Shown here: piece after piece, positions 1 through 12,182 of the stretch | Layout: the number at the start of each line of letters is the position of its first letter | Position numbering within the stretch: the stretch's first letter is position 1 | DNA from: Coriobacteriales bacterium | Lineage (GTDB): Bacteria; Actinomycetota; Coriobacteriia; Coriobacteriales; QAMH01 | Length of the DNA: 12,182 nucleotides | Assembly: GCA_024408695.1 (NCBI GenBank) | Contig: JAKSUU010000014.1 | Span: 1 to 12,182 of the forward strand | Direction: 5' to 3' | Notes under the pieces: model-generated | What the model was told of the DNA's origin: nothing | Database searches by the model: none | What the model saw: the letters and a program-made list of their open reading frames with translations, nothing else | Program-made: the position numbers and the translations under genes

Positions 1-592
1 AGTAAATAATGCTAATATTGCTCGTAAAACTCCACTTCGTGTAATTTTAAATGGCCTTGGTAAAGATGCCGCGCAAATTATTTCTCGTATCAATGGTTTT
101 ACTTATGTTCAAACTAAATATGATTACAAAAATTCTGAACTAACTATTGTTGCAGAAAAGCCCTATAGTAAAGGCGAACGTTCAAAGGTTCGTTGTTTTG
201 GTGCTGACGATGTTGTGGAAGGTGTTGCAATTATGCATCACGAAGGTGTTGATGTTTCTATTACTGGTAATTCAACAAATCCAACCCGTTTTCAACATCC
301 AGTTGCTGGCACTTACAAAAAAGAATGCATTGAGCAGGGCAAAAAGTATTTTAGTGTTGCAAGTGGCGGTGGTACTGGTCGCACTCTTCATCCAGATAAT
401 ATGGCAGCAGGACCTGCAAGTTATGGCATGACGGATACTCTTGGTCGTATGCACAGTGATGCGCAATTTGCTGGCTCTTCCAGTGTTCCGGCTCATGTTG
501 AAATGATGGGCTTTTTGGGCATGGGAAATAACCCGATGGTTGGAGCAAGCGTTGCCGTTGCGGTAGCTGTAAATAGCGCAGTAAATTCATAG
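1..592 (+). CDS. GGGtGRT family protein, C-terminal part (5' truncated)
   Basis: The reading frame is open from the left edge (first full codon at position 2) to TAG at 590-592, giving 196 residues. The protein contains the signature GGGTGRT followed by LHPDNMAAGPASYGMTDT and later QFAGSSSVPAHVEMMG, which I recognise as the GGGtGRT protein family (Pfam GGGtGRT). Family members are normally about 330 residues, so roughly the first 130 residues lie outside the window. The biochemical role of the family is unknown. From memory, family genes often sit beside NifU-like iron-sulfur scaffold genes, but that neighbour would be off the left edge. No signal peptide or membrane segment is visible in this part; the C-terminus is an Ala/Val-rich stretch. 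Two shorter frames opening inside it (147-431 and the minus-strand ones) are shadows. Family call is firm, function is not known. Confidence 0.88.
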   Translation, partial: VNNANIARKTPLRVILNGLGKDAAQIISRINGFTYVQTKYDYKNSELTIVAEKPYSKGERSKVRCFGADDVVEGVAIMHHEGVDVSITGNSTNPTRFQHPVAGTYKKECIEQGKKYFSVASGGGTGRTLHPDNMAAGPASYGMTDTLGRMHSDAQFAGSSSVPAHVEMMGFLGMGNNPMVGASVAVAVAVNSAVNS

Positions 593-673
593 CTTTTATT
601 TTGACTGTGCATGGGTTTTGTATACCGTGGTTTTTAATACTTGGTAAAATTTATTAAGAATTTTGCAGATTAA

Positions 674-702
674 ATTTTGCAAATATTATTTTCATTTATA
701 AT
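674..702 (+). promoter_or_regulatory. Probable promoter of the EF-G-like gene
   Basis: A perfect -10 hexamer TATAAT is at 697-702, 48 bases before the start codon. The -35 region is weak: the best match at the right spacing is the T-rich stretch around 674-680. The upstream gene ends at 592 and I see no strong terminator between, so some read-through from upstream is possible. Confidence 0.5.
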
Positions 703-719
703 AGATATACTTTAATAAT

Positions 720-742
720 CCCTTACGCTAAGGGGGAAGGTG
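720..742 (+). promoter_or_regulatory. Short hairpin abutting the ribosome binding site of the EF-G-like gene
   Basis: CCCTTA (720-725) and TAAGGG (729-734) form a 6-bp stem with a CGC loop. It runs directly into the purine-rich ribosome binding site GGAAGGTG (735-742), which lies 7 bases before the ATG at 750. The hairpin could modulate ribosome access, but it is short and may be chance. The binding site itself supports the start at 750. Confidence 0.35.
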
Positions 743-749
743 AAACATT

Positions 750-2813
750 ATGGCTGCAGATATTTCAAAAGTAAAGAACTTATGTCTTGTTGGACAAGAT
801 GGTGCAGGTAAAACTTCACTTGCAGAGGCTCTTTTGTTTGTTACAGGAAAAACAAGCAAAATGGGAACTACTGCAGATGGTAAATCTAATTTAGATTATG
901 ATGAACAAGAAATCAAACGCCAATTTACCATTAATGCATCTATTGCTCCATTAAAATACAAAGACTGTAAAGTTAATGTATTAGACACATCCGGTCATCC
1001 AGATTTTATTGGACAAACTCTTTATTCAATGCAAGCAAGCGAAATGGCAGTTGTTGTTGTTGATGCTTCAACTGGTCCGCAAATTATGACTAACAAATTT
1101 TGGCGTCATGCTCAAATTATGAATTTGCCACGAGCAATTTTTGTTAATCACATTGATTGTGAAGGTGCAAATTACGATCAAGTTATGGCCGACTTAACTT
1201 CTGCTTTTGGCAGTCGCCTTGGCGCTGTAACAATTCCTATGGGCGTTGACGCAGATTTCAAAGGTGTTATTGATATTGTTCGCATGAAGGCAAGAGTTAA
1301 CGAAGGTGGAAAAGAAAAAGTTAGTGACATTCCAGATGAGTTTGCATCTGTGGCAAATGATGCTCGTGATAAATTAGTCGATTTAGTTGCCGAAGCAGAT
1401 GATGAACTTATGATGAAATATCTTGATGGTGAAGAGCTAACTCAAGACGAATTAGAAAGCCTTCTCGATAAGGCAATTTCTCAAGAAATATTTATTCCTG
1501 TTTATGTTGGTTCTGCGTTAGCTACACAGGGTCTTGAACCATTATTAGACGATGCAATTTCTTATTTTCCAACTGCAGATGCTTATACAAGATATAAAAC
1601 AACAGATGGCGATGATTTTACAATTGATGCAAGTGGCAAGCCAGGTGCTTTTGTATTCAACACATTAAGCGATCCTTATGTTTGCAAATTAAGTTTTGTC
1701 AAAGTTGTTTCTCGTGAAATTTTACCAGGTACGGAGCTTGTAAATAGCCGCACAGGAAAAAAAGAAAAATGCGCTTCTATTAATGAGATGATGGGTAAAA
1801 ATCTTGAAAGCGTTAAAAGCGCTGGTGCTGGTGATATTGTTGTTATCCCTAAACTCGCCGAAGCAAAAACTGGTGATACATTAAGCGAAGGCGGAGCTAT
1901 TAAACTTGAGCCATTCGCTCTTCCTCAACCTCAATATCCTGTAGCTATTGAAGCTAAAGATAGAAATTCTGAAGACAAGTTAAGCACATTTTTGGCTAAA
2001 ATTATCGAAACTGATCCAACAATTAAACTTGTTCAGAATGAAGCTACACACCAAAGTGTTTTAACTTGCATGGGTGAAACTCAGCTTGATATGTTAATTG
2101 ACAAGGCTAAAAATCAAGGTAATGTCGAAGTTAATTTAGTTGCTGTCAAAATCCCTTATCAAGAAACAATTACAAAAGAATGCTCTGCTCAGGGTCGTCA
2201 CAAAAAACAATCTGGTGGTGCCGGTCAGTTTGGTGACTGCTTCTTGCGCCTTATGCCAAATGCAGGCAATGGTTATGAATTTATTGATGAGATTAAGGGT
2301 GGTGCCATTCCAGGTAGTTTAATTCCTGCTGTTGACAAGGGCGTTGTGGAAACTATGCGCGATGGCTTTTTAGCAGGTTATCCTATGGTCGACGTAAAAG
2401 TTGCAGTATTTGATGGTTCTTTCCACCCAGTAGATTCAAACGAAATTTCATTTAAATCTGCTGCACGTATTGCTTTTAAAGCTGCATGCGAGCAGGGTAA
2501 TCCTGTAATTTTGGAACCATATGCTCGCATTGACGTTACGGTTTCTGATGAATATTTTGGCGCAATCATGGGTGATGTTTCTACAAAACGTGGAAGCGTT
2601 ATTGGTCAAGATACAAATGAGTTTGGCGAGATGATTATTAAAGCTCGTGTTCCTTATGCAGAAGTTATTGAATATCAACGCGACCTTCGTCAAATGACTC
2701 GTGGTTCTGGTTCATTTACTCTAGAGATGGATGGATATGAACAAGTTCCTGGCGATGTTCAAAAGAAGTTGGTTGACGAATATCAAGCCGCAAGAGCTGC
2801 TGCTTCTGCGTAA
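750..2813 (+). CDS. Elongation factor G-like translational GTPase
   Basis: The 687-residue product has the five-domain EF-G layout. GTPase motifs are visible: G1 GQDGAGKT (15-22), switch I EIKRQFTI, G3 DTSGHPD (79-85) with the catalytic-type His kept at 83, G4 NHID (133-136) and G5 near GSAL. C-terminal domains IV and V are present (GAGQFGD, then EPYARIDVTVSDEYFG and a TRGSGSF motif close to the end). It belongs to the EF-G-like (FusA2-type) branch, not canonical EF-G: the G1 loop lacks GHIDAGKT, switch I lacks RGITI, and G4 has His where NKxD is usual. Family members are ribosome-associated GTPases of uncertain specific role. ATG at 750 has a good ribosome binding site. It stands alone between a promoter at 697-702 and a terminator at 2839-2940, so it appears monocistronic. 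It is not a tetracycline-resistance protein by the motifs I can read. Confidence 0.9.
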   Translation: MAADISKVKNLCLVGQDGAGKTSLAEALLFVTGKTSKMGTTADGKSNLDYDEQEIKRQFTINASIAPLKYKDCKVNVLDTSGHPDFIGQTLYSMQASEMAVVVVDASTGPQIMTNKFWRHAQIMNLPRAIFVNHIDCEGANYDQVMADLTSAFGSRLGAVTIPMGVDADFKGVIDIVRMKARVNEGGKEKVSDIPDEFASVANDARDKLVDLVAEADDELMMKYLDGEELTQDELESLLDKAISQEIFIPVYVGSALATQGLEPLLDDAISYFPTADAYTRYKTTDGDDFTIDASGKPGAFVFNTLSDPYVCKLSFVKVVSREILPGTELVNSRTGKKEKCASINEMMGKNLESVKSAGAGDIVVIPKLAEAKTGDTLSEGGAIKLEPFALPQPQYPVAIEAKDRNSEDKLSTFLAKIIETDPTIKLVQNEATHQSVLTCMGETQLDMLIDKAKNQGNVEVNLVAVKIPYQETITKECSAQGRHKKQSGGAGQFGDCFLRLMPNAGNGYEFIDEIKGGAIPGSLIPAVDKGVVETMRDGFLAGYPMVDVKVAVFDGSFHPVDSNEISFKSAARIAFKAACEQGNPVILEPYARIDVTVSDEYFGAIMGDVSTKRGSVIGQDTNEFGEMIIKARVPYAEVIEYQRDLRQMTRGSGSFTLEMDGYEQVPGDVQKKLVDEYQAARAAASA

Positions 2814-2838
2814 TTTTACGCGTTCATAATTTAGATTT

Positions 2839-2940
2839 AAGGATAGCCCTATACTCCTTGCTCAGACGAAAATTTGGTATATAAAATAATTTGTCAAATT
2901 TTCGTATCGTTCGCCTCGGAGTACAGGGCTATCCTTTTTT
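2839..2940 (+). terminator. Long hairpin terminator after the EF-G-like gene
   Basis: The left arm 2839-2857 pairs with 2918-2936 over 19 positions with one A-C mismatch (2851 with 2924). An internal loop follows, then CGAAAATTTG (2867-2876) pairs perfectly with CAAATTTTCG (2895-2904) around an 18-base loop. The outer stem runs into a T tract at 2935-2940, which fits intrinsic termination on the plus strand. The total of about 100 bases is far longer than an ordinary terminator, so the structure may derive from a miniature palindromic element. Confidence 0.75.
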
Positions 2941-3141
2941 ATTAGCTGAGCATAATATACACCGAGCAGTAGTTTGCATCTTGTTATTCTAGTCTATCTA
3001 GTCTTAGCTTTATTGTTGCTTAAATTCTGGCAAAAAACTTTGGTAAATTTCTTATTGCGTTGACCAGCAATTTGGTACAAAACATATCAGGTATTTTTTG
3101 TACCAAAATTAATTAATTTTTTTATAAAAGCATTTATTTAG
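2941..3141. other. Gene-free stretch upstream of the rpsB promoter
   Basis: No open frame with a credible ribosome binding site is present between the terminator at 2839-2940 and the rpsB promoter. The stretch is AT-rich. Its one clear structure is the inverted repeat at 3071-3107, listed separately. A good -35-like TTGACC occurs at 3060-3065, but the sequence 17 bases on (CATATC) is a poor -10. Confidence 0.5.
3071..3107. repeat. Perfect 12-bp inverted repeat, possible operator or hairpin
   Basis: TTTGGTACAAAA (3071-3082) and its exact reverse complement TTTTGTACCAAA (3096-3107) are separated by 13 bases. It lies 35 bases upstream of the rpsB -10 box and about ten bases ahead of a run of seven T (3117-3123). 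It could be a binding site for a dimeric regulator or a transcribed hairpin. The sequence does not decide between these. Confidence 0.55.
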
Positions 3142-3147
3142 TATAAT
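3142..3147 (+). promoter_or_regulatory. -10 box of the rpsB-tsf promoter
   Basis: A perfect TATAAT hexamer is at 3142-3147. The -35 position holds only a T-rich sequence (3119-3124), so activity may depend on upstream AT-rich DNA. Transcription would begin near 3154, leaving a leader of about 140 bases before rpsB. Confidence 0.55.
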
Positions 3148-3153
3148 AATTAA

Positions 3154-3292
3154 TCGCGCTAATAAGGGCGTGAATGAGGGTGCGTAATGCACAAAGTAAA
3201 CATGCGAGGGGAGCAACACCGCATGTGGGTCAATTGACCTGCGGTTTTAGTTTGCGATGATCTGAGCAGAGGTAGAACAAATAGGAGGATAT
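3154..3292 (+). promoter_or_regulatory. Candidate structured 5' leader of rpsB-tsf with alternative hairpins
   Basis: Between the -10 box and the rpsB start the DNA is more GC-rich than the flanking spacer and full of pairings. GTGC/GCAC (3180-3183 with 3189-3192) forms a small hairpin. ACATGCG (3200-3206) pairs with CGCATGT (3220-3226). ACCGCA (3218-3223) pairs instead with TGCGGT (3240-3245), stacked through a one-sided TGTG bulge on GGTC/GACC (3228-3231 with 3236-3239) with an AATT loop. The last two structures share 3220-3223 and cannot form together. Leaders of ribosomal protein operons often bind the encoded protein, so S2 autoregulation is the natural guess. I do not recognise a described RNA family here. 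The ribosome binding site AGGAGG is at 3283-3288. Confidence 0.5.
3174..3260 (+). CDS. Possible 28-codon upstream ORF in the rpsB leader
   Basis: ATG at 3174 opens 28 codons ending in TGA at 3258-3260, 32 bases before rpsB. An AAGGG at 3164-3168 lies 5 bases before the ATG, a usable ribosome binding site. The predicted peptide begins MRVRNAQSKHARG and is strongly basic. It runs right through the alternative hairpins of the leader, so its translation would melt them. I recognise no family, and an open frame of this length can occur by chance. Confidence 0.22.
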   Translation: MRVRNAQSKHARGATPHVGQLTCGFSLR

Positions 3293-4213
3293 ATGTCTAC
3301 AAAAGTGTCTTTAAAAGACCTACTTGATGCCGGAGTCCATTTTGGGCATCAAACACATCGTTGGAATCCAAAGATGAAACCCTATATTTTCACTGCTCGT
3401 AGTGGTATCTACATTCTCGACCTTAAACAGACAATTTATGGTTTAGATGATGCTATTACTTTTGCACGTGGCGTATGCGCTCGTGGTCAACAGGTGTTAT
3501 TTGTAGGAACAAAAAAACAAGCTACAATCACTATTAAAGAGCAAGCCGACCGCGCCAGCATGCCTTATGTTAACTATCGTTGGATGGGTGGTATGCTCAC
3601 AAACTTTAAAACTATTAGTAATAGTGTTAAGCGTATGGAAAAAATTGAGGCCATGATTGAAGATGGCACTATGGATTCTTACAACAAAAAAGAACAAGGT
3701 TCGTTTAGAAAACAATACGAAAAGCTAAATCTTGCTCTTGGCGGTATTCGCAGTCTTGGCAACATTAAAGATGTTAAGGAAAAGATTGGCGCAGTTTTTG
3801 TAGTTGATACTGTAGCAGAAGACATTGCAGTTAAAGAAGCTATGCGCCTTAATATTCCAATTATTGCTATGCTCGATACAAATTCCGACCCAGACGATAT
3901 TGAATATGGAATTCCCGCAAATGATGATGCGATGCGTTCTATCGAACTCATCACCACTGTTATTGCAGACGCTTGTATCGAAGGTGCTCAAGCATGTGTG
4001 AGCGAAGCAGATTTTAAGGGTGGCGACAAAGCCGGAAAAGCTTCAAAAGGTCCACGAGGGGCAAAAGCTCCAGCTAAAGGTTCTAAATCTTCTGTCAAAA
4101 AAGCTCCAAAAGCAGATGCCAAGGTAGAAGATAAGACAGACGAAAAAGCAGAAGATAAAGCTGATAAAAACCCTAAAGATGAAAATACAGCTGACGAAAA
4201 AGCAGCTGAATAA
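3293..4213 (+). CDS. rpsB: 30S ribosomal protein S2
   Basis: S2 is a small-subunit protein needed for late 30S assembly and for binding of S1 where that is present. The 306-residue product opens with the family pattern LLDAGVHFGHQTHRWNPKMK (10-29). It continues with VLFVGTKKQA, then YRWMGGMLTNFKTI, GALFVVDT-like IGAVFVVDT, and the C-terminal IPANDDAMRSIELIT. The S2 core ends near residue 240. Typical S2 is about 230-260 residues, so the last 66 residues are an extension: Lys/Gly/Ala/Pro-rich and basic to about residue 275, then Lys/Glu/Asp-rich and acidic. ATG at 3293 follows a strong AGGAGG. tsf starts 26 bases after the stop, so the two form an operon, probably controlled through the structured leader. 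Confidence 0.97.
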   Translation: MSTKVSLKDLLDAGVHFGHQTHRWNPKMKPYIFTARSGIYILDLKQTIYGLDDAITFARGVCARGQQVLFVGTKKQATITIKEQADRASMPYVNYRWMGGMLTNFKTISNSVKRMEKIEAMIEDGTMDSYNKKEQGSFRKQYEKLNLALGGIRSLGNIKDVKEKIGAVFVVDTVAEDIAVKEAMRLNIPIIAMLDTNSDPDDIEYGIPANDDAMRSIELITTVIADACIEGAQACVSEADFKGGDKAGKASKGPRGAKAPAKGSKSSVKKAPKADAKVEDKTDEKAEDKADKNPKDENTADEKAAE

Positions 4214-4239
4214 ATTTAGATATATTGAAAGGATAAATC

Positions 4240-5115
4240 ATGGCAGATATTACAGCAAGTATGGTTAAAGAATTGCGCGAGGCTACTGGCGCAGGCATGA
4301 TGGAATGCAAAAAAGCTTTAGTAGAAGCAGAGGGAGATGCCGAAAAAGCAACTGACATTTTGCGTACTACAGGCCTTGCAGCAGCTGCAAAAAAAGCTGA
4401 CCGCGCTACAAATGAAGGACGTATTTATACATGCGTATGCGAAAATCATCCAAATAAAGGTGCAATGACAGAGGTCAATTGTGAAACAGATTTTGTTGCG
4501 ATTAATGAAAAATTCGCAGAATATTGCAAAACTTTCACAAAGGCAGTTTGTCACAATAATCCAAAAGATGTTGATGAACTTATGGCTAGCGAATTTGATG
4601 GAACAAAGGTTCAAGATATTCTTACAGATGCAATTCATGTTATTGGCGAAAATATGAGCGTTGCTCGTTTTGAAAGAATCGAACTTGAAGAGCCTGCAGC
4701 TTTGGTTGATTATATTCATATGAATGGCAAGATTGGTGTTATTGTTGGCTTTAAGTTTGATAATGCAGATACTGCAAATAATGAAAAGTTCAAAGAAATG
4801 GCACGCGATGTTGCTATGCATATTGCTGCAACAAATCCAATTGCATTAGACGGAGCAAGTGTACCTGCTGATGTTGCCGCGCATGAGCTCGAAATGTACG
4901 AGGCGCAAGCAGCCGAAAGTGGCAAGCCGGAAAACATTCAAGAGCAAATTGCTCAGGGTCGTATGAAGAAATTCTATAAAGAAAACTGTCTTATGGCACA
5001 GGAATTTGTTAAAGATCCAGATGTTACGGTTGATCAATATATCAAAAATTGTGCTAAAGAAATTGGCGACAATGTTGTATGTGCAACATTTACACGCTTT
5101 GCAATGGGTCAGTAA
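4240..5115 (+). CDS. tsf: Elongation factor Ts
   Basis: EF-Ts is the cytoplasmic guanine-nucleotide exchange factor that recycles EF-Tu. The 291-residue protein has the N-terminal UBA-like helical region (MVKELREATGAGMMECKKAL, 8-27) and the conserved core motif TDFV (83-86), which contacts the EF-Tu GTPase domain in the family. The dimerisation subdomains follow, ending with a motif around GRMKKFYKENCLMAQEFVKD. Length is normal. The start at 4240 has GAAAGGA (4227-4233) 6 bases upstream. It is the second gene after rpsB. The pyrH and frr genes that often follow tsf are absent; a terminator closes the operon instead. Confidence 0.97.
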   Translation: MADITASMVKELREATGAGMMECKKALVEAEGDAEKATDILRTTGLAAAAKKADRATNEGRIYTCVCENHPNKGAMTEVNCETDFVAINEKFAEYCKTFTKAVCHNNPKDVDELMASEFDGTKVQDILTDAIHVIGENMSVARFERIELEEPAALVDYIHMNGKIGVIVGFKFDNADTANNEKFKEMARDVAMHIAATNPIALDGASVPADVAAHELEMYEAQAAESGKPENIQEQIAQGRMKKFYKENCLMAQEFVKDPDVTVDQYIKNCAKEIGDNVVCATFTRFAMGQ

Positions 5116-5137
5116 TTTTTGAGAGAAATGTCTAATA

Positions 5138-5176
5138 AAGAGCACTAGTGCAGTTTTGTGCTAGTGTTCTTTTTTT
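5138..5176 (+). terminator. Intrinsic terminator of rpsB-tsf
   Basis: A 14-position stem (5138-5151 with 5158-5171, including G-U pairs) closes a short T-rich loop. It is followed by a T run to 5176. It sits 22 bases after the tsf stop. Confidence 0.88.
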
Positions 5177-5198
5177 ATGAGGTCATCTAACGCATGGC

Positions 5199-5233
5199 CC
5201 TGCAACACCTGGGGACGGTAACCTAAGTGTTGC
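5199..5233 (+). repeat. 35-bp palindromic repeat, copy 1
   Basis: This unit has GCAACAC at its left and GTGTTGC at its right, with TGGGGACGG and GGTAACC inside. It is identical over 35 bases to copy 2 at 5244-5278. The arms can form a 7-bp stem. The GGGGACGG core resembles repeats found near RAYT/IS200-like transposases in other bacteria, an inference from memory. No transposase is in the window. Confidence 0.85.
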
Positions 5234-5243
5234 ACAATGCAAG

Positions 5244-5278
5244 CCTGCAACACCTGGGGACGGTAACCTAAGTGTTGC
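5244..5278 (+). repeat. 35-bp palindromic repeat, copy 2
   Basis: Exact second copy of 5199-5233, separated from it by 10 bases, giving a 45-bp period. Its right end is two bases before the -10 box of gltX, so it supplies the -35 region of that promoter. Confidence 0.85.
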
Positions 5279-5286
5279 GCTATAAT
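5258..5286 (+). promoter_or_regulatory. gltX promoter partly inside repeat copy 2
   Basis: A perfect TATAAT is at 5281-5286, 54 bases before the gltX ribosome binding site centre. The -35 position (5258-5263, GGACGG) falls inside the repeat and is a poor match to TTGACA. The assignment therefore rests on the -10 box and on the terminator at 5138-5176 isolating gltX from tsf. Confidence 0.5.
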
Positions 5287-5340
5287 TTTAGTATGCGAGA
5301 ATTAAATTTACTGTTAATTTTCAGACAATGAGGAGAAAAT

Positions 5341-6855
5341 ATGGATGAAGTAAGAGTTCGTTTTGCCCCATCCCCAACTGGTAAATTACACATTGGTGGA
5401 GCAAGAACAGCCATTTACAATTGGGCATATGCCAAAGCCTGCAAAGGAAAGTTTATTTTAAGGATTGAGGATACTGACCCTGCTCGCTCTACGCCAGAGA
5501 ACATTGATTTGATTTTGCGGGCTTTAAAATGGCTTGAGCTTGATTGGGATGAAGGTCCTGCGTGCGACCCACAAAATAATTGCTTACGTGATGCCCAGGG
5601 TAAGGCACAGTCTGAAGGCAATTTTGGTCCATATTTTCAGACTCATCGTTATGACTCTTACAACGAGGCTTTGCAAAAACTTATTGAAAACGATAACGCT
5701 TATCCATGTTTTTGCACGTCAGAAGAAATTGAAGCTAATCGTCAAGCAGCCCTAGAAGCAAAGGTAAAGTTTGTTGACCCTTGCCGGGCAATAAACAAAG
5801 ATGAAGCAATGGCTCGTGTTGAGGCTGGTGAATCCCACGTTTGGCGTCTTAAGGTTCCACAAGATCGAGGCGACATCATCGTTCATGATTTAGTTCATGG
5901 AGACAGTGCGTTTGATGCAAGCCTTCAAGATGATATGATTTTAATGCGTAGTGATGGCAATCCTACTTATAATTTTTGTGTAGTTTGCGACGATGCAAAT
6001 ATGAAGATTACGCATGTCATTAGAGGTGATGACCATTTAAGCAATACACCTAGGCAAATATTGATTTACGAAGCGCTTGGTCTTGATGTGCCCTGTTTTG
6101 CACATATTCCCATGATCTGCGGTGAAGATGGCAAAAAGCTCTCCAAACGCCATGGCGCTCAAAGTGTTGAAGAATTCAGAGATATGGGATATTTGAGTGA
6201 TGCTTTGTTCAATTATTTATCTTTGTTGGGTTGGGCTCCAGACGGCGAAACTACGATTTTTTCACGCAATCAAATGGCAAAAATTTTTGATCTTGTTAAT
6301 GTATCCAAAAATCCTTCTTCACTTGATTTTAAAAAGATGGACTGGATAAACAACCAATATATCAGAAGTATGAACAAGGATGACTACGCCATCGCTTTAT
6401 TGCCTCATCTTGTTTCGCAACAGACTTTTGCTTCTGTTGAAGATGCAAAAACGCAGTTTGATACTATAAAAGAAACCTATGAGCTTGTTTTTGAGCGTGC
6501 GAATACTTTGGTTGAAGCTGCACAAAAAATAGCATTTATTTTTGATGCAGAAATGAAGCTTGACGAGGCTAGTGCTGAAAAGGCTCTTAAAAAAGAAGGT
6601 AATTTAGCTAAAACAGTTTTGGAACGAAGTTTAGAGATTTTTAATGCATGCGATTGGAATTTCGAAGATATAGACACAAAACTCAAGTCTTTAATGGAGG
6701 AACTTGGGCTTAAGCCTCGAGTTTTCTTCCAAGCTATCCGAGTTGCAGTGTGTTTAAATATGGTTTCTCCGCCATTAGTAGAATCTATTGTTTTGATGGA
6801 TAAAGACTTGGTTATTAAGCGTATGCTTAACGCAATTTCATTAGCAGCCGATTAA
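5341..6855 (+). CDS. gltX: Glutamyl-tRNA synthetase
   Basis: This class I aminoacyl-tRNA synthetase charges tRNA-Glu with glutamate. Visible signatures are VRVRFAPSPTGKLHIGG (4-20, holding the HIGH motif as HIGG 17-20), RIEDTDPARS, the catalytic-loop KLSKRHG (266-272), and the helical anticodon-binding C-terminus. Cys123, Cys125 and Cys148 lie where some family members bind zinc. The 504-residue length is slightly above the usual 465-490, explained by about 17 extra residues between Pro73 and Gly96, which contain two further cysteines (75, 81). AGGAG at 5331-5335 supports the ATG at 5341. The gene stands alone: a terminator and two repeats precede it, and inverted repeat copies follow its stop. 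Whether it is discriminating (Glu only) or also charges tRNA-Gln cannot be decided here. Confidence 0.96.
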   Translation: MDEVRVRFAPSPTGKLHIGGARTAIYNWAYAKACKGKFILRIEDTDPARSTPENIDLILRALKWLELDWDEGPACDPQNNCLRDAQGKAQSEGNFGPYFQTHRYDSYNEALQKLIENDNAYPCFCTSEEIEANRQAALEAKVKFVDPCRAINKDEAMARVEAGESHVWRLKVPQDRGDIIVHDLVHGDSAFDASLQDDMILMRSDGNPTYNFCVVCDDANMKITHVIRGDDHLSNTPRQILIYEALGLDVPCFAHIPMICGEDGKKLSKRHGAQSVEEFRDMGYLSDALFNYLSLLGWAPDGETTIFSRNQMAKIFDLVNVSKNPSSLDFKKMDWINNQYIRSMNKDDYAIALLPHLVSQQTFASVEDAKTQFDTIKETYELVFERANTLVEAAQKIAFIFDAEMKLDEASAEKALKKEGNLAKTVLERSLEIFNACDWNFEDIDTKLKSLMEELGLKPRVFFQAIRVAVCLNMVSPPLVESIVLMDKDLVIKRMLNAISLAAD

Positions 6856-6860
6856 TTTTT

Positions 6861-6892
6861 GCAACACTAAGGTTACCGTTCCCAAGTGTTGC
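6861..6892 (-). repeat. Inverted, diverged copy of the gltX-upstream repeat
   Basis: The reverse complement matches the 32-base core of copy 1 (5202-5233) at 29 of 32 positions. Its own ends form a perfect 8-bp stem (GCAACACT with AGTGTTGC). It starts 6 bases after the gltX stop. No T tract follows on either strand, so it is not a good terminator despite its position between convergent genes. Confidence 0.8.
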
Positions 6893-6912
6893 GTCCGTTC
6901 CCCTTGCGTTGC
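6893..6912 (-). repeat. Degenerate fragment of the same repeat
   Basis: CCGTTCCCC followed by TTGCGTTGC resembles the right half of 6861-6892 with a few changes. It ends 3 bases before the stop codon of the convergent degV gene (6916-6918). Confidence 0.5.
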
Positions 6913-6915
6913 GGT

Positions 6916-7782
6916 TTATGCGCAGGCAGATTTTGTCAAGAATAAAACTCCAATACAATGTGGCCCACAATGAGAACCAATCGTGCAACTAGCATACGAT
7001 TTATGAATTGTTGCACCTGGCAATAGCCCTTGCACGTATTCAACGTAGCCATCAATAATAGAGTCGTCTTCGAAACCTGTTGATGTTACAAAAACATCAT
7101 CTAAAATGATGTCATCGTATTTTTTAATTTGATCTGCCATATATTTGCGAATAACTTTGTCGGATGGACCGCGATATAATTTGCCTACGCTCATGGAAGC
7201 ATCATTATTGTGAACTGTAATTTGTGGTTTGAAGTTTAAAGCTTTTCCGATGTGCGAAGCGATTGTTGGACACCTTCCGCCGGCAGCTAAAAATTCAAGA
7301 GTGTCTAAAACAAAAGAGGCATGTGAACAATTGCGAATTTTTAAGGCGTTTTTGTATACCTCTTCAATAGTTTTGCCTGCTTGAAGTTGCTTTCCTGCGG
7401 CAATAACTTGCAATCCTGTGCCAGTTGACAAAGATTGTGAATCAACAACATATACTCCATCTAAAGACTGACCTGCCATAATGGCGTTATTGCAGGCACT
7501 CGACAAAGAAGACCCTAAGCAAAAATGCAAAACTTTATAGCCTTGATTGGTGAATTGTTTAAAATATTCCATAAAAACGCCTGGAGAAGCTGCAGCAGTT
7601 TTAGGGAGTTCCCCATCTTTATAGAAGCCTTCATATATTGTTTCTACTTTTATGTCGACATTGTCTTTATAATCCTCACCTTTGTAAATAATGTGATAAG
7701 GAAAATATTCAACATTATATTTTTCCTTAAGCTCGTCCGACAAATCACAAGTTGAATCGGCACTTAGAATAATTTTTTCCAT
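6916..7782 (-). CDS. DegV family lipid-binding protein
   Basis: DegV proteins bind a long-chain fatty acid in a two-domain fold. In Firmicutes some members (FakB) present the acid to the FakA kinase. The 288-residue product has the opening motif SADSTCDL (7-14), PKTAAASPGVF (60-70, the family PKTSxPSPxxF site), a GSSLSSA loop (90-96), DSQSLSTG (114-121) and LDTLEFLAAGGR (159-170). It ends with a TIGSHCGPHCIGV motif. These cover both ligand-contacting loops and the length is typical. The start has AAAGGA 9 bases upstream (minus strand, 7792-7797). No fakA partner is in the window. It is convergent with gltX and divergent from the ATP-grasp fusion gene, with which it may share a control region. 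Family call is firm, ligand unknown. Confidence 0.93.
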   Translation of the reverse strand: MEKIILSADSTCDLSDELKEKYNVEYFPYHIIYKGEDYKDNVDIKVETIYEGFYKDGELPKTAAASPGVFMEYFKQFTNQGYKVLHFCLGSSLSSACNNAIMAGQSLDGVYVVDSQSLSTGTGLQVIAAGKQLQAGKTIEEVYKNALKIRNCSHASFVLDTLEFLAAGGRCPTIASHIGKALNFKPQITVHNNDASMSVGKLYRGPSDKVIRKYMADQIKKYDDIILDDVFVTSTGFEDDSIIDGYVEYVQGLLPGATIHKSYASCTIGSHCGPHCIGVLFLTKSACA

Positions 7783-7814
7783 TGGTATTAATCCTTTAAT
7801 ATTAAATAGTTAAC

Positions 7815-7822
7815 ATTATAAT
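7815..7822. promoter_or_regulatory. Overlapping divergent -10 boxes between degV and the fusion gene
   Basis: ATTATAAT reads as TATAAT on both strands: plus 7817-7822 towards the fusion gene, minus 7815-7820 towards degV. The two starts are only 62 bases apart. -35 regions are weak on both sides. If both are used, the two promoters would compete for the same site. Confidence 0.45.
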
Positions 7823-7844
7823 TGTAATAGACTTGTTTTTTTGA

Positions 7845-10082
7845 ATGCTAAATATTATGAATAAAGATACTGTTGCAAAAATTGCCATACTTCAACAATT
7901 TGGCGATTTGAATTATGCATTAAGCTTACGTTATTACTATATAGATTATTTTAGAGCCGCCGGACTTGATTGTTGCGTTATTGCTTATGATGAAGATTTG
8001 CAACGCTTTGAGCAAAGCCTTACAAGTTTTGATGGCATTGTTATTTGTGGTGGTGATGACCTTAATTTGCGTGATGATGGCTTTGCTTGTAGTTTTGATG
8101 AAGCTTGCTTGCGTCAAAAATGTGAAATTATTGCGTGTCGTGTTGCGGCTAACAATAACATTCCATTTTTTGGCATTTGTCGAGGTCATCAAGTTGCAAA
8201 TCTTGCATTTGGCGGTAGTATTTACAAAGATGTACCCAGTGAATATAAAACAAGTATCAAGCATAATAATGATTTGGCTGATGATGCTAGTGATCTGAAT
8301 AAAACGCACCATTTACTTTATATAGACCAAAAATTTGGACTTTATAAGTTACTCAGCAAAGAAAGTATTTTAGTAAATTCGTATCATCATCAAGGTGTAA
8401 AAGAACTTGCATCTTGTTTTGATATTTGTGCATACACAAAAGATGGTCTAATTGAGGCATTTATGCATAAAAGCTGCGATTTTTTCTTAGGGGTTCAATT
8501 TCATCCAGAGCTTATGCCATTAAGTGAAGACACACAACAACTGGCTTTATCTTTTGCCCAGGCATGTAGGTCTTATCATATAAACAACATTGCGAATTTT
8601 AATTTGTCGAATTCAATCAATGGTTTTAACCAGCAAGTTTATACTTTAAATCCACAGCCTAAATTTGCCGAAAGCTATGTTGAAAGTATCTGTTTTCCTA
8701 AGTCTAAAAATTTAGAATACGAACAAGAATTTTTATTCGAAATGCAAAGTCTCAATGGCGATGAAGCTTCGCGTCGTGCTGCCTGGGACTACATAAAATC
8801 TTCAACCGCAATTTTTGCAGGAATCCCAGTATATACTTCGTTTGTACCCAAATTATTCGATCAAAATACTTATGATTTTTGCAAAATTAGTGTAGATAAA
8901 ATTTATAAAATCTTATGCAAGGTGATTGAGCGTTTTAAGCAAGATGTGCAATATCGCAATTTATTCAATTATGATGAACGCTTGCTTGAACTCATGCTTT
9001 TGCCCGCTCAGGTTGATGCACCCCTTCCATTTGCACGTTTTGATTTTTTCTTGGATGAGCAAAATTTCAATATGAAATTCTGTGAGTTTAACACCGATGG
9101 TTCTAGCGGCATGAATGAAAATCGTGAAGCTTATTTGAGCATTCAAAATTCTGCAAGCTATAAAGCTTTTTGCAAAAATCATGACTGTCATGTTGATACT
9201 GAGTATCTATTTGAAGGATGGGTTGACAAATTCTTAGAGATATATAAAACCTATCCAAAGGCCAAGGATAATCCACATATTTGCATTGTTGATTATTTAG
9301 AAAATGGCGTGACTGAAGAATTTAAACTTTATGGACATATATTTGAAGAGCGTGGCTATAAATTTAGCATTTATGACATTCGCAATCTTGAATATGATGG
9401 TAAAAACTTGATAGGAAAACGTGCGTTTTATGGGCAAGATGGTGCTATTATTGATGCGCTTTGGCGTCGTAGCGTTGCTAGTGATTGTCTGCGTTTTTAT
9501 AATGAATCCCTTGCTTATTTTAATGCAATAAAAGATGATAATGTGTTTATAATAGGCTCATTCGCAACAAATATTGTTCACGACAAACAAATATTCAGAG
9601 TTCTTCATAACCCACAAACAAGTGCGTTTTTAGATAATGATGAACAAGATTTTATTAAAAGACATGTTCCTTTTACAAGTTATTTGGATGAAAAATATGT
9701 CAATCTAGACAAAATTATTGACGAAAAGGATGCATGGGTTATTAAACCCTGCGATGGTTATGGCTCAAGCGATGTTTGTGTAGGACGTGATTTTTCTGCT
9801 TCAGAGTGGTCGAAAATAATACATGAACATGCTAATTCAAAAACCGGTTTCCCGTTTTTGGCTCAAGAATTTTGTTCTTTTTATAAATCTAGCGCCCTTC
9901 CTTTTTATGATGAAGAATGCGATTATACTGCAAATCCATATTTGTATAATAATCTCTCTGGCTTGTTTGCCATAGATGGAAAGTTCAGCGGTATTTTTTC
10001 TCGTCTTGGACCAAACAGTATTATTTTAGGCAAGCGTGGAGGAGTTACTGCCCCAACCATATGGGTGGATGTGCAGCGCTGA
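7845..10082 (+). CDS. Fusion of peptidase C26 / class I amidotransferase-like hydrolase and glutathionylspermidine-synthase-like ATP-grasp ligase
   Basis: The 745-residue protein has two enzyme domains. Residues about 10-245 match the gamma-glutamyl-GABA hydrolase (PuuD, peptidase C26) pattern: GGDD (69-72), nucleophile elbow GICRGHQ with Cys112, VNSYHHQGVK (177-186), and the His220-Glu222 pair in FHPE. Residues about 270-745 match the GSP-synthase type of ATP-grasp: ARFDFFLDE, CEFNTDGSSG (413-422), a DKQIFRVLHN stretch, KPCDGYGSSD (634-643), AQEF (673-676) and SRLGP (719-723) near the end. By homology the first half hydrolyses a gamma-glutamyl or similar amide and the second ligates one using ATP. 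E. coli Gss joins the same two activities with an unrelated CHAP amidase. All catalytic residues I can identify are present. There is no signal peptide, so it is likely cytoplasmic. There is no clear ribosome binding site before ATG 7845 or the in-frame ATG 7857. Substrate unknown. Confidence 0.85.
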   Translation: MLNIMNKDTVAKIAILQQFGDLNYALSLRYYYIDYFRAAGLDCCVIAYDEDLQRFEQSLTSFDGIVICGGDDLNLRDDGFACSFDEACLRQKCEIIACRVAANNNIPFFGICRGHQVANLAFGGSIYKDVPSEYKTSIKHNNDLADDASDLNKTHHLLYIDQKFGLYKLLSKESILVNSYHHQGVKELASCFDICAYTKDGLIEAFMHKSCDFFLGVQFHPELMPLSEDTQQLALSFAQACRSYHINNIANFNLSNSINGFNQQVYTLNPQPKFAESYVESICFPKSKNLEYEQEFLFEMQSLNGDEASRRAAWDYIKSSTAIFAGIPVYTSFVPKLFDQNTYDFCKISVDKIYKILCKVIERFKQDVQYRNLFNYDERLLELMLLPAQVDAPLPFARFDFFLDEQNFNMKFCEFNTDGSSGMNENREAYLSIQNSASYKAFCKNHDCHVDTEYLFEGWVDKFLEIYKTYPKAKDNPHICIVDYLENGVTEEFKLYGHIFEERGYKFSIYDIRNLEYDGKNLIGKRAFYGQDGAIIDALWRRSVASDCLRFYNESLAYFNAIKDDNVFIIGSFATNIVHDKQIFRVLHNPQTSAFLDNDEQDFIKRHVPFTSYLDEKYVNLDKIIDEKDAWVIKPCDGYGSSDVCVGRDFSASEWSKIIHEHANSKTGFPFLAQEFCSFYKSSALPFYDEECDYTANPYLYNNLSGLFAIDGKFSGIFSRLGPNSIILGKRGGVTAPTIWVDVQR

Positions 10083-10443
10083 TTTACTGTAATAGTGGCA
10101 CACAAAATTTAATCCTTTATTCTTTCTGCGCAGTAATATTTATACAAATTTTTTACAAATCGTATGAATTAATTTATATATCGCTTTTAAACAAACTTGC
10201 ATTTAATGATGAATATTTTAGAATTAATTTAGTAAAAATTCAGTAATTTTTTAGAGTTTCTTTTGTATTTTTTGTTTTCAGTTTAGTTCTATATACTTTA
10301 TTTTTTCATCTTTTACTATAAAGAATTTTATTTAAGGCAATATAAATTCGCCTATATTTTAGATTAAGCTGCCTGCTAGTTCATTGTTTTTAAATTCGCA
10401 CTATGTTTAAATGTGTTTGTCGATTGATTTTGAAGGAGCAAAT
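10083..10443. other. AT-rich intergenic region before yraN
   Basis: These 361 bases are extremely AT-rich. I see no gene: the one longer frame (61 codons from 10061) overlaps the end of the fusion gene out of frame and matches nothing. TATAAA-like boxes occur at 10317-10322 and 10341-10346 without convincing -35 partners. A weak AGGC/GCCT hairpin is around 10335-10353. No strong terminator for the fusion gene is visible. Confidence 0.5.
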
Positions 10444-10830
10444 ATGACAAATACAACTCTTGATAAAAAGACTTTAGGACAGAAAGGAGAAAATGCCGCG
10501 TCTAGCTATTTGGAAGCAGATGGATATGAAATGTGAGATAGAAATTGGCGATGCAAATATGGAGAGGTAGATATAGTAGCAAAATCTCCAGATGAAACAG
10601 TCTGTTTTGTTGAGGTGAAAACAAGAAGCGGAATAAGTGCTGGACTTCCAGAAGATGCAGTTGATGCAAAAAAACAAAGTAAATATGAAAGAATAGCAAT
10701 GTTATATATGGCAGACAAAGAAAATATTGACAACTTGTGCATAAGATTCGATGCCATTGCCATATGCGCAAGCGAAAATAACCATGCTTTACTCCGTCAT
10801 CATAAAGGCTGCTTTGATGGGCGCGGCTAA
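10444..10830 (+). pseudogene. yraN: yraN (UPF0102) nuclease-like gene interrupted by in-frame TGA
   Basis: Read through one TGA (10534-10536, codon 31), the frame gives a 128-codon UPF0102/YraN protein: LGQKGENAASSYLEADGYEM, then the stop, then DRNWRCKYGEVDIVA and FVEVKTRSG. These hold the Asp and Glu-x-Lys residues of the family's restriction-endonuclease-like fold; the cellular role of YraN is unclear, though it usually sits by comM and dprA. In relatives the interrupted position is normally hydrophobic (GYxxLxRNW), so a single TTA to TGA change would explain it. No start codon lies between the stop and the GEVD motif, so a restart would lose the active site. AAGGAG (10433-10438) supports the ATG at 10444. 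The gene uses many AGA and ATA codons, unlike rpsB and tsf. It could be a recent pseudogene, a read-through gene or a sequencing error. Confidence 0.8.
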
Positions 10831-12182
10831 GACATATAGGTCTCAGGTTTGTACTTGCACGCTTCATGGTGTAAGTGCAATTCCTGTAACCGTCGAAATT
10901 GAAATTGGGCCTGGTCTTCCTGGTTTCCATATAGTTGGAATGGGAGATACTTCTGTTCAAGAGGCACGACAGCGAGTTAAAAGTGCGATTAAGTGTGCAG
11001 GTTTTGAGTATAAGAGCAATGCACATGTGGTAGTGAATTTAGCTCCTGCTTCTTTAAAAAAATATGGATCTGGCTTTGATTTGCCAATAGCTTTTGCGTA
11101 TCTTAGTGCTTTAAATATGATTCCTAAGCATTTAATACAAGATAAATTAATTATTGGTGAGCTTGGTCTTGACGGTAGTGTTCATAATGTTAATGGGATT
11201 GTAGCTTGCGCGCTTAAGGCTAAGGAACTTGGTTACGATTTGATTTCGGCTAGCCCAACAGAAACTATGCCTAAGATTAAGGATTTGGTTCATTATTGTT
11301 TAGATGACCTTTTTAATTTGCGTGAGCACTTGCAAAATAATACAGATCTTAAAAAATATAAACATACTAACGGCAAAGATTTTAGAAAAAATAAATTAGA
11401 TTATAAGGATGTCGTTGGTCAAAAAGTCGCTATAAGAGCACTAACAATTGCCGCTGCTGGGGGTCATGGTATTTTACTTTTTGGTCCTCCTGGATCTGGT
11501 AAATCAATGTTAGCTAAACGTTTTAATACAATTTTGCCTTCGTTGTTGCAGGATGAAATTTTAGAATGTGCAGTTATTCATTCTGTTGCAGGAGAAGATG
11601 TGTCTTCAATTGCTGCAGGTATTCGACCCTTTAGAAGTCCACATCATAGTGCAACAGTTCCATCTTTAGTAGGTGGGGGAACACCAATAAGGCCAGGTGA
11701 GGCATCGTTAGCCCATCTAGGAGTGTTATTTTTAGATGAACTCGGCGAGTTTTCAAATTCGTCTTTGCAAGCACTGCGGCAACCAATTGAAGATGGAGAA
11801 ATATTATTGTGTCGTGCGGAAGGACGGGCGCGTTTTCCTGCTAAGTTTCAGTTGCTTGCAGCTTCTAATCCTTGTCCATGTGGCTTTCTTGGAGATAGAC
11901 ATCATGAATGCAGTTGCAATATTACTCAAATCAATCGATATAAATCTAAATTAGCAGGTCCAATAAAAGATCGTATTGATATGATTTGCGAAGTTCATAG
12001 AACGGATCCTGAACTTGTTTTAGATAGTGGCCAGGGAAAATCTTCTGCACAAATTTTAGAAGAAGTATTGAACGCAAGAGAATTTGCTAAAAAATACGAT
12101 ATTCAAGCCAAACACTTTTCTTCGCTTAAACCGAGTAATGTAATTGAGGAATGTAATCTAAGAAATGAACAAAAAAAGTTAC
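10817..12182 (+). CDS. comM: ComM/YifB family Mg-chelatase-like AAA+ ATPase (3' truncated)
   Basis: ComM is a hexameric helicase that promotes branch migration during integration of transformed DNA; YifB homologues are widespread. The 455 residues seen begin with the N-terminal domain (GPGLPGFHIVGM, 31-42; ARQRVKSAIK; NLAPASLKKYGSGFDLPIA). They continue into the AAA+ module with Walker A GPPGSGKS (223-230), FRSPHHSAT, Walker B VLFLDEL (303-309) and the CPCG motif (353-356) followed by a CSC pair. Full-length members are about 500 residues, so only the last 50 or so are missing off the right edge. The start at 10817 lies inside the last codons of yraN (14-base overlap), with AAAGG at 10804-10808 as ribosome binding site. 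The overlap suggests translational coupling, which the yraN stop codon may disturb. No competence genes beyond this are in view. Confidence 0.95.
   Translation, partial: MGAAKTYRSQVCTCTLHGVSAIPVTVEIEIGPGLPGFHIVGMGDTSVQEARQRVKSAIKCAGFEYKSNAHVVVNLAPASLKKYGSGFDLPIAFAYLSALNMIPKHLIQDKLIIGELGLDGSVHNVNGIVACALKAKELGYDLISASPTETMPKIKDLVHYCLDDLFNLREHLQNNTDLKKYKHTNGKDFRKNKLDYKDVVGQKVAIRALTIAAAGGHGILLFGPPGSGKSMLAKRFNTILPSLLQDEILECAVIHSVAGEDVSSIAAGIRPFRSPHHSATVPSLVGGGTPIRPGEASLAHLGVLFLDELGEFSNSSLQALRQPIEDGEILLCRAEGRARFPAKFQLLAASNPCPCGFLGDRHHECSCNITQINRYKSKLAGPIKDRIDMICEVHRTDPELVLDSGQGKSSAQILEEVLNAREFAKKYDIQAKHFSSLKPSNVIEECNLRNEQKKL

Follow-up and report, generated by a model that had tools for sequence, protein, structure and literature searches.

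Gss of E. coli and trypanothione synthetase combine a hydrolase with a C-terminal ligase of the circularly permuted ATP-grasp fold. The amidase half of Gss is a CHAP domain, and ligases of the glutathione synthetase (GSS) and GspS types activate a C-terminal carboxylate and then couple an amine to it. C26 enzymes hydrolyse gamma-glutamyl amides; removal of a gamma-glutamyl group is performed by PuuD and by EgtC. We analyzed a 12,182-nucleotide stretch of DNA from a Coriobacteriales bacterium (assembly GCA_024408695.1, contig JAKSUU010000014.1, positions 1 to 12,182; the whole stretch is called the window here), which carries a gene for a C26 hydrolase fused to a C-terminal ligase of the same fold as in Gss. 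The window protein differs from Gss in its hydrolase, which is C26 and not CHAP (no CHAP match up to E 10 in Pfam) and would cut a gamma-glutamyl bond. It also has no match to PF03738, and the recurrent partner gene is GCS2, a glutamate-cysteine ligase (GCL). We estimate the probability at about 0.6 that the window protein catalyses two steps in a gamma-glutamyl pathway, making one amide and breaking another.

The fusion gene is an open reading frame without internal stop, and the form that begins at its second ATG is protein database entry P0002. The gene and its predicted parts are:

7845..10082, + strand: C26-ATP-grasp fusion gene, 745 amino acids (alternative ATG at 7857, 741 amino acids)
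7878..8579, + strand: Peptidase C26 domain (gamma-glutamyl hydrolase-like, class-I glutamine amidotransferase fold), residues ~12-245, from Pfam PF07722, PDB matches and the full-length model
8178..8180, + strand: Cys112, predicted nucleophile (GICRG), invariant in 4/4 aligned fusions
8373..8396, + strand: VNSYHHQG motif, residues 177-184, read in the translation
8502..8510, + strand: His220 and Glu222, predicted triad partners, invariant in 4/4 aligned fusions
8580..8708, + strand: end of a helix plus flexible linker, residues 246-288, from the full-length model
8709..10079, + strand: ATP-grasp ligase domain, circularly permuted, with the GSS/GspS/YgiC/Cp1B fold, residues ~289-745, from alignment, PDB profile and structure prediction
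9036..9092, + strand: R398, D400, E414 and N416, invariant in 14/14 rows of the ligase alignment
9744..9746, + strand: K634, predicted ATP lysine (KPCDGYGSSD), invariant in 14/14 rows of the ligase alignment

We concluded that this is a rare, genuine fusion of two known enzyme kinds. Three further full-length fusions showed 37-42% identity to the window protein across 96-98% of its length, and genome G309 encodes in a single frame a fusion nearly identical to one of them (P0003); an assembly accident is thereby excluded. A census of the architecture, which the earlier note had suggested, turned up few such fusions: a profile of the four fusions found 488 relatives among 5.8 billion proteins, and 4 of the 120 relatives listed were fusions (the window's own, P0003, P0004, and P0005). 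In the full-length model two well-folded domains are joined by a flexible linker (predicted template-modelling score, pTM, 0.68; residues 257-281 below 50 in predicted local distance difference test, pLDDT). Tethering of the two halves is the most that this model would allow. We considered and dropped a rigid docking of one active site against the other; because of the pTM and the low linker pLDDT, we claim neither an active-site geometry nor a fixed tunnel.

The C26 half agreed with the earlier note. Cys112, His220, and Glu222, which it had named as the catalytic set, were found at those positions, and the PF07722 search gave a match at residues 27-222 (3.9e-39; 135.1 bits vs. a gathering cut-off of 20.5). 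With the profile above its gathering score and the Cys-His-Glu triad present, this half belongs to Peptidase C26. Its PDB matches include Lin1909 (2e-21) and PuuD (3.5e-14). Judged by sequence, it is likely a gamma-glutamyl-removing enzyme. The window protein did not reach the PuuD equivalog NF008471 (60.3 bits vs. a curated cut-off of 266) or the gamma-glutamyl-CDP-amidate hydrolase model NF045546 (50.6 bits vs. 250).

In the ligase half, the motifs quoted in the earlier note (CEFNTDG, DKQIFRVLHN, KPCDGYGSSD, and GGVTAP) were present with conserved core residues. The expected GSP_synth family PF03738 gave no match in the window protein up to E 10 (Pfam), and no Pfam match above cut-off was found in the C-terminal part; the best ATP-grasp match was PF14403 (CP_ATPgrasp_2) at 5.5e-4 and 19.4 bits, below the cut-off of 32. 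By precomputed annotation, PF03738 is present in some close homologues and PF14403 is carried by many relatives. The fold was assigned from structure prediction and from the family profile searched against the PDB, and on this modelling the C-terminal half is an ATP-grasp of the GSS/GspS kind, as had been proposed, in circularly permuted form. YgiC headed the structure comparison with a Z that other rows shared, and the synthetase half of Gss and trypanothione synthetase was a close fold match. Eukaryotic-type glutathione and homoglutathione synthetases also share the fold (human 27.6, soybean 28.6, potato 27.5). The window ligase resembles them in its catalytic R/D/E/N residues, arranged as R-x-D and E-x-N, and in its association with a plant-like GCL; it differs in its fusion to a hydrolase and in sequence, with 12-13% identity. 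To our knowledge, no hydrolase partner is known for the YgiC/YjfC peptide-spermidine ligases or for fungal Cp1B. R398, D400, E414, and N416 correspond to R139, D141, E163, and N165 of Cp1B, matched by the R-x-D / E-x-N pattern and not by superposed coordinates. According to one article (PMC12568646), alanine mutants at these four Cp1B positions had abolished or greatly lowered activity, and the Cp1B substrate is trans-epoxysuccinate; the peptide-spermidine ligase activity of YgiC/YjfC is mentioned and referenced there.

The ligase recurs with GCS2 (PF04107). Plant-type GCS2 enzymes make gamma-Glu-Cys, and GshB is the usual bacterial second enzyme after glutamate-cysteine ligase. The absence of glutathione genes near the fusion, pointed out earlier, holds for the window; but the genome (75% complete) does encode a GCS2, truncated where a different contig ends, and relatives have GCS2 next to the ligase or fused with it. 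We compared 120 ligase loci, namely the window and 119 fetched loci hand-picked from the full-protein query listings (L150, fetched for its C26 and lacking the ligase, was excluded). In 20 of them, the gene immediately upstream on the same strand was GCS2. The two genes share one open frame in three genomes from three families (G009, G028, and G012). This count leaves out G025, with both in one frame yet a stop between partner start and ligase end, and G112, whose open frame spans both. The GCS2-ligase fusions resemble GshF, a glutamate-cysteine ligase and ATP-grasp in one chain; GshF differs in being built from other GCL and ATP-grasp families, and the window protein has C26 in place of the GCL.

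The full-protein query matched 179/197 relative genomes and 363/395 genomes of the order, counts that mix ligase with C26 matches. The source names of relatives include Gordonibacter, Adlercreutzia, Eggerthella, and Paraeggerthella, and in the first three the protein is annotated as carboxylate-amine ligase, ATP-grasp protein or hypothetical. The ligase itself is present in at least 121 of the 197 genomes; this and all further ligase counts over these genomes are among the matches listed, and a genome without a ligase row there counts as lacking it, also when it has a weaker ligase. Both ligase and GCS2 were present in 97 genomes, the ligase only in 24, GCS2 only in 10 and neither in 66 (Fisher 3e-21, uncorrected for shared descent, a limit that weakens the association). 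Counted by genus, the corresponding numbers were 63, 6, 6, and 14, and within family f10 they were 11, 0, 1, and 35. G073 was excluded from the GCS2 set as below cut-off; the G309 genome also has one GCS2. Six GCS2 proteins all scored best with the plant glutamate-cysteine ligase model, and one GCS2 matched glutamate-cysteine ligases in the PDB at 1.9e-43 to 5.9e-41. Gamma-Glu-Cys is the likely GCS2 product, and only likely because the six proteins fall below the NCBIfam equivalog cut-off of that plant model. GshB (PF02955) was over cut-off in just 4/197 genomes and was therefore rejected as the missing second enzyme; the G012 hit falls on the ligase domain within that genome's GCS2 fusion.

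C26 was found directly upstream of the ligase on the same strand in 5/120 loci; the window and G309 encode the two in a single frame, and G174, G163, and G189 as separate genes. In a ligase tree of 121 rows (ten of the 120 loci left out for a stop or odd length in the matched range), all eight C26-linked rows, including the nearly identical P0003 and G309, fell within one clade of 74 rows, mostly as early branches. The window paired with P0004 and the stand-alone P0006 with a support of 92. The C26 tree placed the linked domains in three places (P0003/P0004/P0005/G174; G163/G189; the window) and needs three changes, though counting starred branches alone demands just one; the window sits on a long branch. 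These trees suggest that C26 was likely recruited repeatedly and independently to the same ligase. A single origin of the link was set aside, since the C26 tree needs three changes, though the starred branches force one.

A related cluster occurs in a second phylum. The first scan of genome contigs for relatives gave none, and the second gave mostly ordinary C26 genes, together with three loci under the titles Gemmatimonadaceae or Gemmatimonadetes; there, C26 neighbours a ligase homologue of 22-28% identity. Pfam confirmed C26 and GCS2 in 2/2 tested each, and PF14403 was over cut-off in 2/3 ligases. Because the query that found these loci contained C26, the census was redone with the ligase alone, which matched in 48/121 genomes of a Gemmatimonadota order. 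We then compared 31 loci, each from a different genome (best-scoring, 31 of the 42 strong matches listed): within ~1.5 kb of the ligase, 30 had C26, 29 had GCS2, and 30 had another ATP-grasp-like gene. Without the three loci found via C26, each of the three genes was present in 27/28. The ligase-GCS2-C26 link is thus not one lineage's accident. The fourth gene of this cluster (L071, L072, L074, L257-L287) encodes ~320 amino acids and is ATP-grasp-like, with weak Pfam matches in 1/3 tested.

From the established architecture, catalytic residues, predicted fold, and gene associations we infer the substrates, the order of the steps and their direction. The separate plant-like GCS2, encoded on the other contig, would make gamma-Glu-Cys or a close analogue. 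The ATP-grasp half would convert the free carboxylate of the gamma-glutamyl compound to an acyl phosphate and attach an amine or amino acid there. The C26 half, tethered to the ligase, would cleave the gamma-glutamyl bond of a pathway compound by a Cys-His-Glu thiol mechanism. We tentatively take this cleavage, at less than even odds, as biosynthetic removal of a gamma-glutamyl handle that gives glutamate and Cys-X; turnover of a stored glutathione-like thiol seems less probable. Putting a gamma-glutamyl group on and later taking it off is also the logic of PuuD and of EgtA-EgtC, though EgtC is an Ntn-type enzyme and the window hydrolase is a C26 fused to an ATP-grasp. In ergothioneine biosynthesis, EgtA is a gamma-glutamylcysteine synthase and EgtC a glutamine amidohydrolase (PMC6154287).

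Several observations weigh against such a two-step pathway. C26 is absent within 3.5 kb at 113/120 ligase loci and is therefore dispensable for what the ligase does at its core. Two genomes, G039 and G161, have a divergent ligase that shares one frame with a GDSL-type domain instead, so the ligase also accepts a partner without an evident gamma-glutamyl role. No GCS2 was detected in 24 of the 121 ligase genomes. Sixteen of these belong to f5, including 12 from a single genus with ligases only 26-29% identical to the window's; seven are f2 genomes, five of which are near-complete and belong to one genus. The GCS2 scores below the equivalog cut-off count on the same side. The Glu-holding residues of canonical glutathione synthetases (R, E, two Q, N, and Y, taken from PMC5919673) were not recognisable in the window ligase, in a weak alignment made without superposed coordinates.

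The earlier note had proposed that one chain makes and breaks the same amide, as in Gss, with the hydrolase half acting under another condition such as a different redox state. The modular logic of Gss and trypanothione synthetase and the close fold match to their synthetase half fit this, but C26 cuts gamma-glutamyl bonds, whereas the bond made by GSS/GspS-type ligases is at the other, carboxyl end. The CHAP amidase of Gss had no match in the window protein up to E 10, and the ligase is repeatedly accompanied by GCS2, which makes gamma-glutamyl bonds; because of this association we rank the same-bond cycle below the two-step pathway and regard it as improbable. A glutathione-like homeostasis would make the ligase the order's missing glutathione synthetase, joining gamma-Glu-Cys to glycine or another amino acid, with C26 beginning thiol breakdown; in plants, cytosolic gamma-glutamyl peptidases begin glutathione breakdown. 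The plant-like GCL partner, the near absence of GshB, and the eukaryotic-GSS fold are consistent with it. The Glu pocket, unrecognised in that weak alignment, speaks against it, as does C26 in the cluster at 30/31 Gemmatimonadota loci, more in keeping with a regular step than with salvage, and we consider this explanation unlikely.

The conjugate suggested earlier, a gamma-glutamyl-polyamine or small thiol amide, stood in part: a gamma-glutamyl substrate is likeliest, and the polyamine found no support. A peptide-polyamine ligase of the YgiC/GspS type paired with a PuuD-type gamma-glutamyl-polyamine hydrolase would account for YgiC at the top by Z and for PuuD among the PDB matches, but the PuuD equivalog score is far below its cut-off. 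The spermidine-synthase family PF01564 was over cut-off in 41/121 ligase genomes vs. 38/76 others, mostly as weak matches (other polyamine routes and uptake were not searched), and its sole match better than 1e-20 was in G181, outside the ligase set. No PF01564 match over cut-off was found in the window's incomplete genome. Spermidine as the acceptor was rejected, since PF01564 does not track the ligase, and polyamine conjugation as a whole appears rather remote. The two halves might also share no substrate, the fusion being a chance outcome of co-transcription. Fusions are indeed few, and two genomes have the GDSL-type partner instead; against this, C26 sits next to this ligase across several lineages and also in a second phylum, which makes mere chance very improbable. 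In the open-licence PMC literature, judged by title and start of abstract, we recognised no description of the C26-ATP-grasp fusion or of the ligase-GCS2-C26 link. The 2009 amidoligase survey by Iyer and colleagues may mention such neighbourhoods already.

One neighbour in the window is also frequent beside the ligase in the order:

5341..6855, + strand: gltX, glutamyl-tRNA synthetase, by family match

Within 3.5 kb of the ligase, gltX occurs in 75/120 loci and Lit (PF07314) in 56/120. Many f2 genomes (L115, L119, L124, and others) have the order ligase, then Lit and gltX, without evident reason. Both were considered as functional partners and dropped: they are common neighbours, yet no mechanism was found. 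The window gltX has its closest relatives within its own family (G004 and G003, 56-59%), while the window ligase (8709-10079) reaches 49% identity with f2 genomes but just 34-38% with ligases of its own family; it is possible that a foreign copy displaced the ligase near the same locus. The GDSL-type lipase domain and divergent f5 ligase are in one open frame in L147 (G039) and L227 (G161), and in L146 and L148 a GDSL match lies upstream of the ligase in a different frame; an HD-domain gene is directly downstream in all four loci.

Downstream of the fusion gene, a frame from 10444 onward (+), which we take to be YraN-like, has an in-frame TGA at codon 31, which may reflect a pseudogene, recoding or a sequence error. 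A Mg-chelatase/ComM-like gene (10751-12181, +; PF01078, 1.8e-82) runs past the contig end, and the 3' part of a GGGtGRT-family gene (up to 592, +; PF14057, 2.8e-79) runs past its start. The EF-G-like protein at 750-2813 (+) scored above the NF009381 subfamily cut-off and below the main EF-G equivalog, and may be an additional, non-canonical EF-G. Scans for promoters and terminators did not exceed the shuffles, and tRNA and Rfam searches gave no match.

The ligase is widespread in the host order, with relatives named as Eggerthella, Gordonibacter, and Adlercreutzia. The order may, as a speculative possibility, turn gamma-Glu-Cys into an undescribed thiol or amide by a route of its own, in which a plant-like GCL is followed by a circularly permuted ATP-grasp that replaces GshB, and C26 was recruited repeatedly to take off the gamma-glutamyl group and release Cys-X. 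The Gemmatimonadota cluster would be a related form, and the window protein a compact one with the last two steps in one chain. The link to glutamate-cysteine ligase gives this ligase family a testable substrate, the C26 fusion indicates the next pathway step, and the low-molecular-weight thiol chemistry of these bacteria becomes an experimental question.
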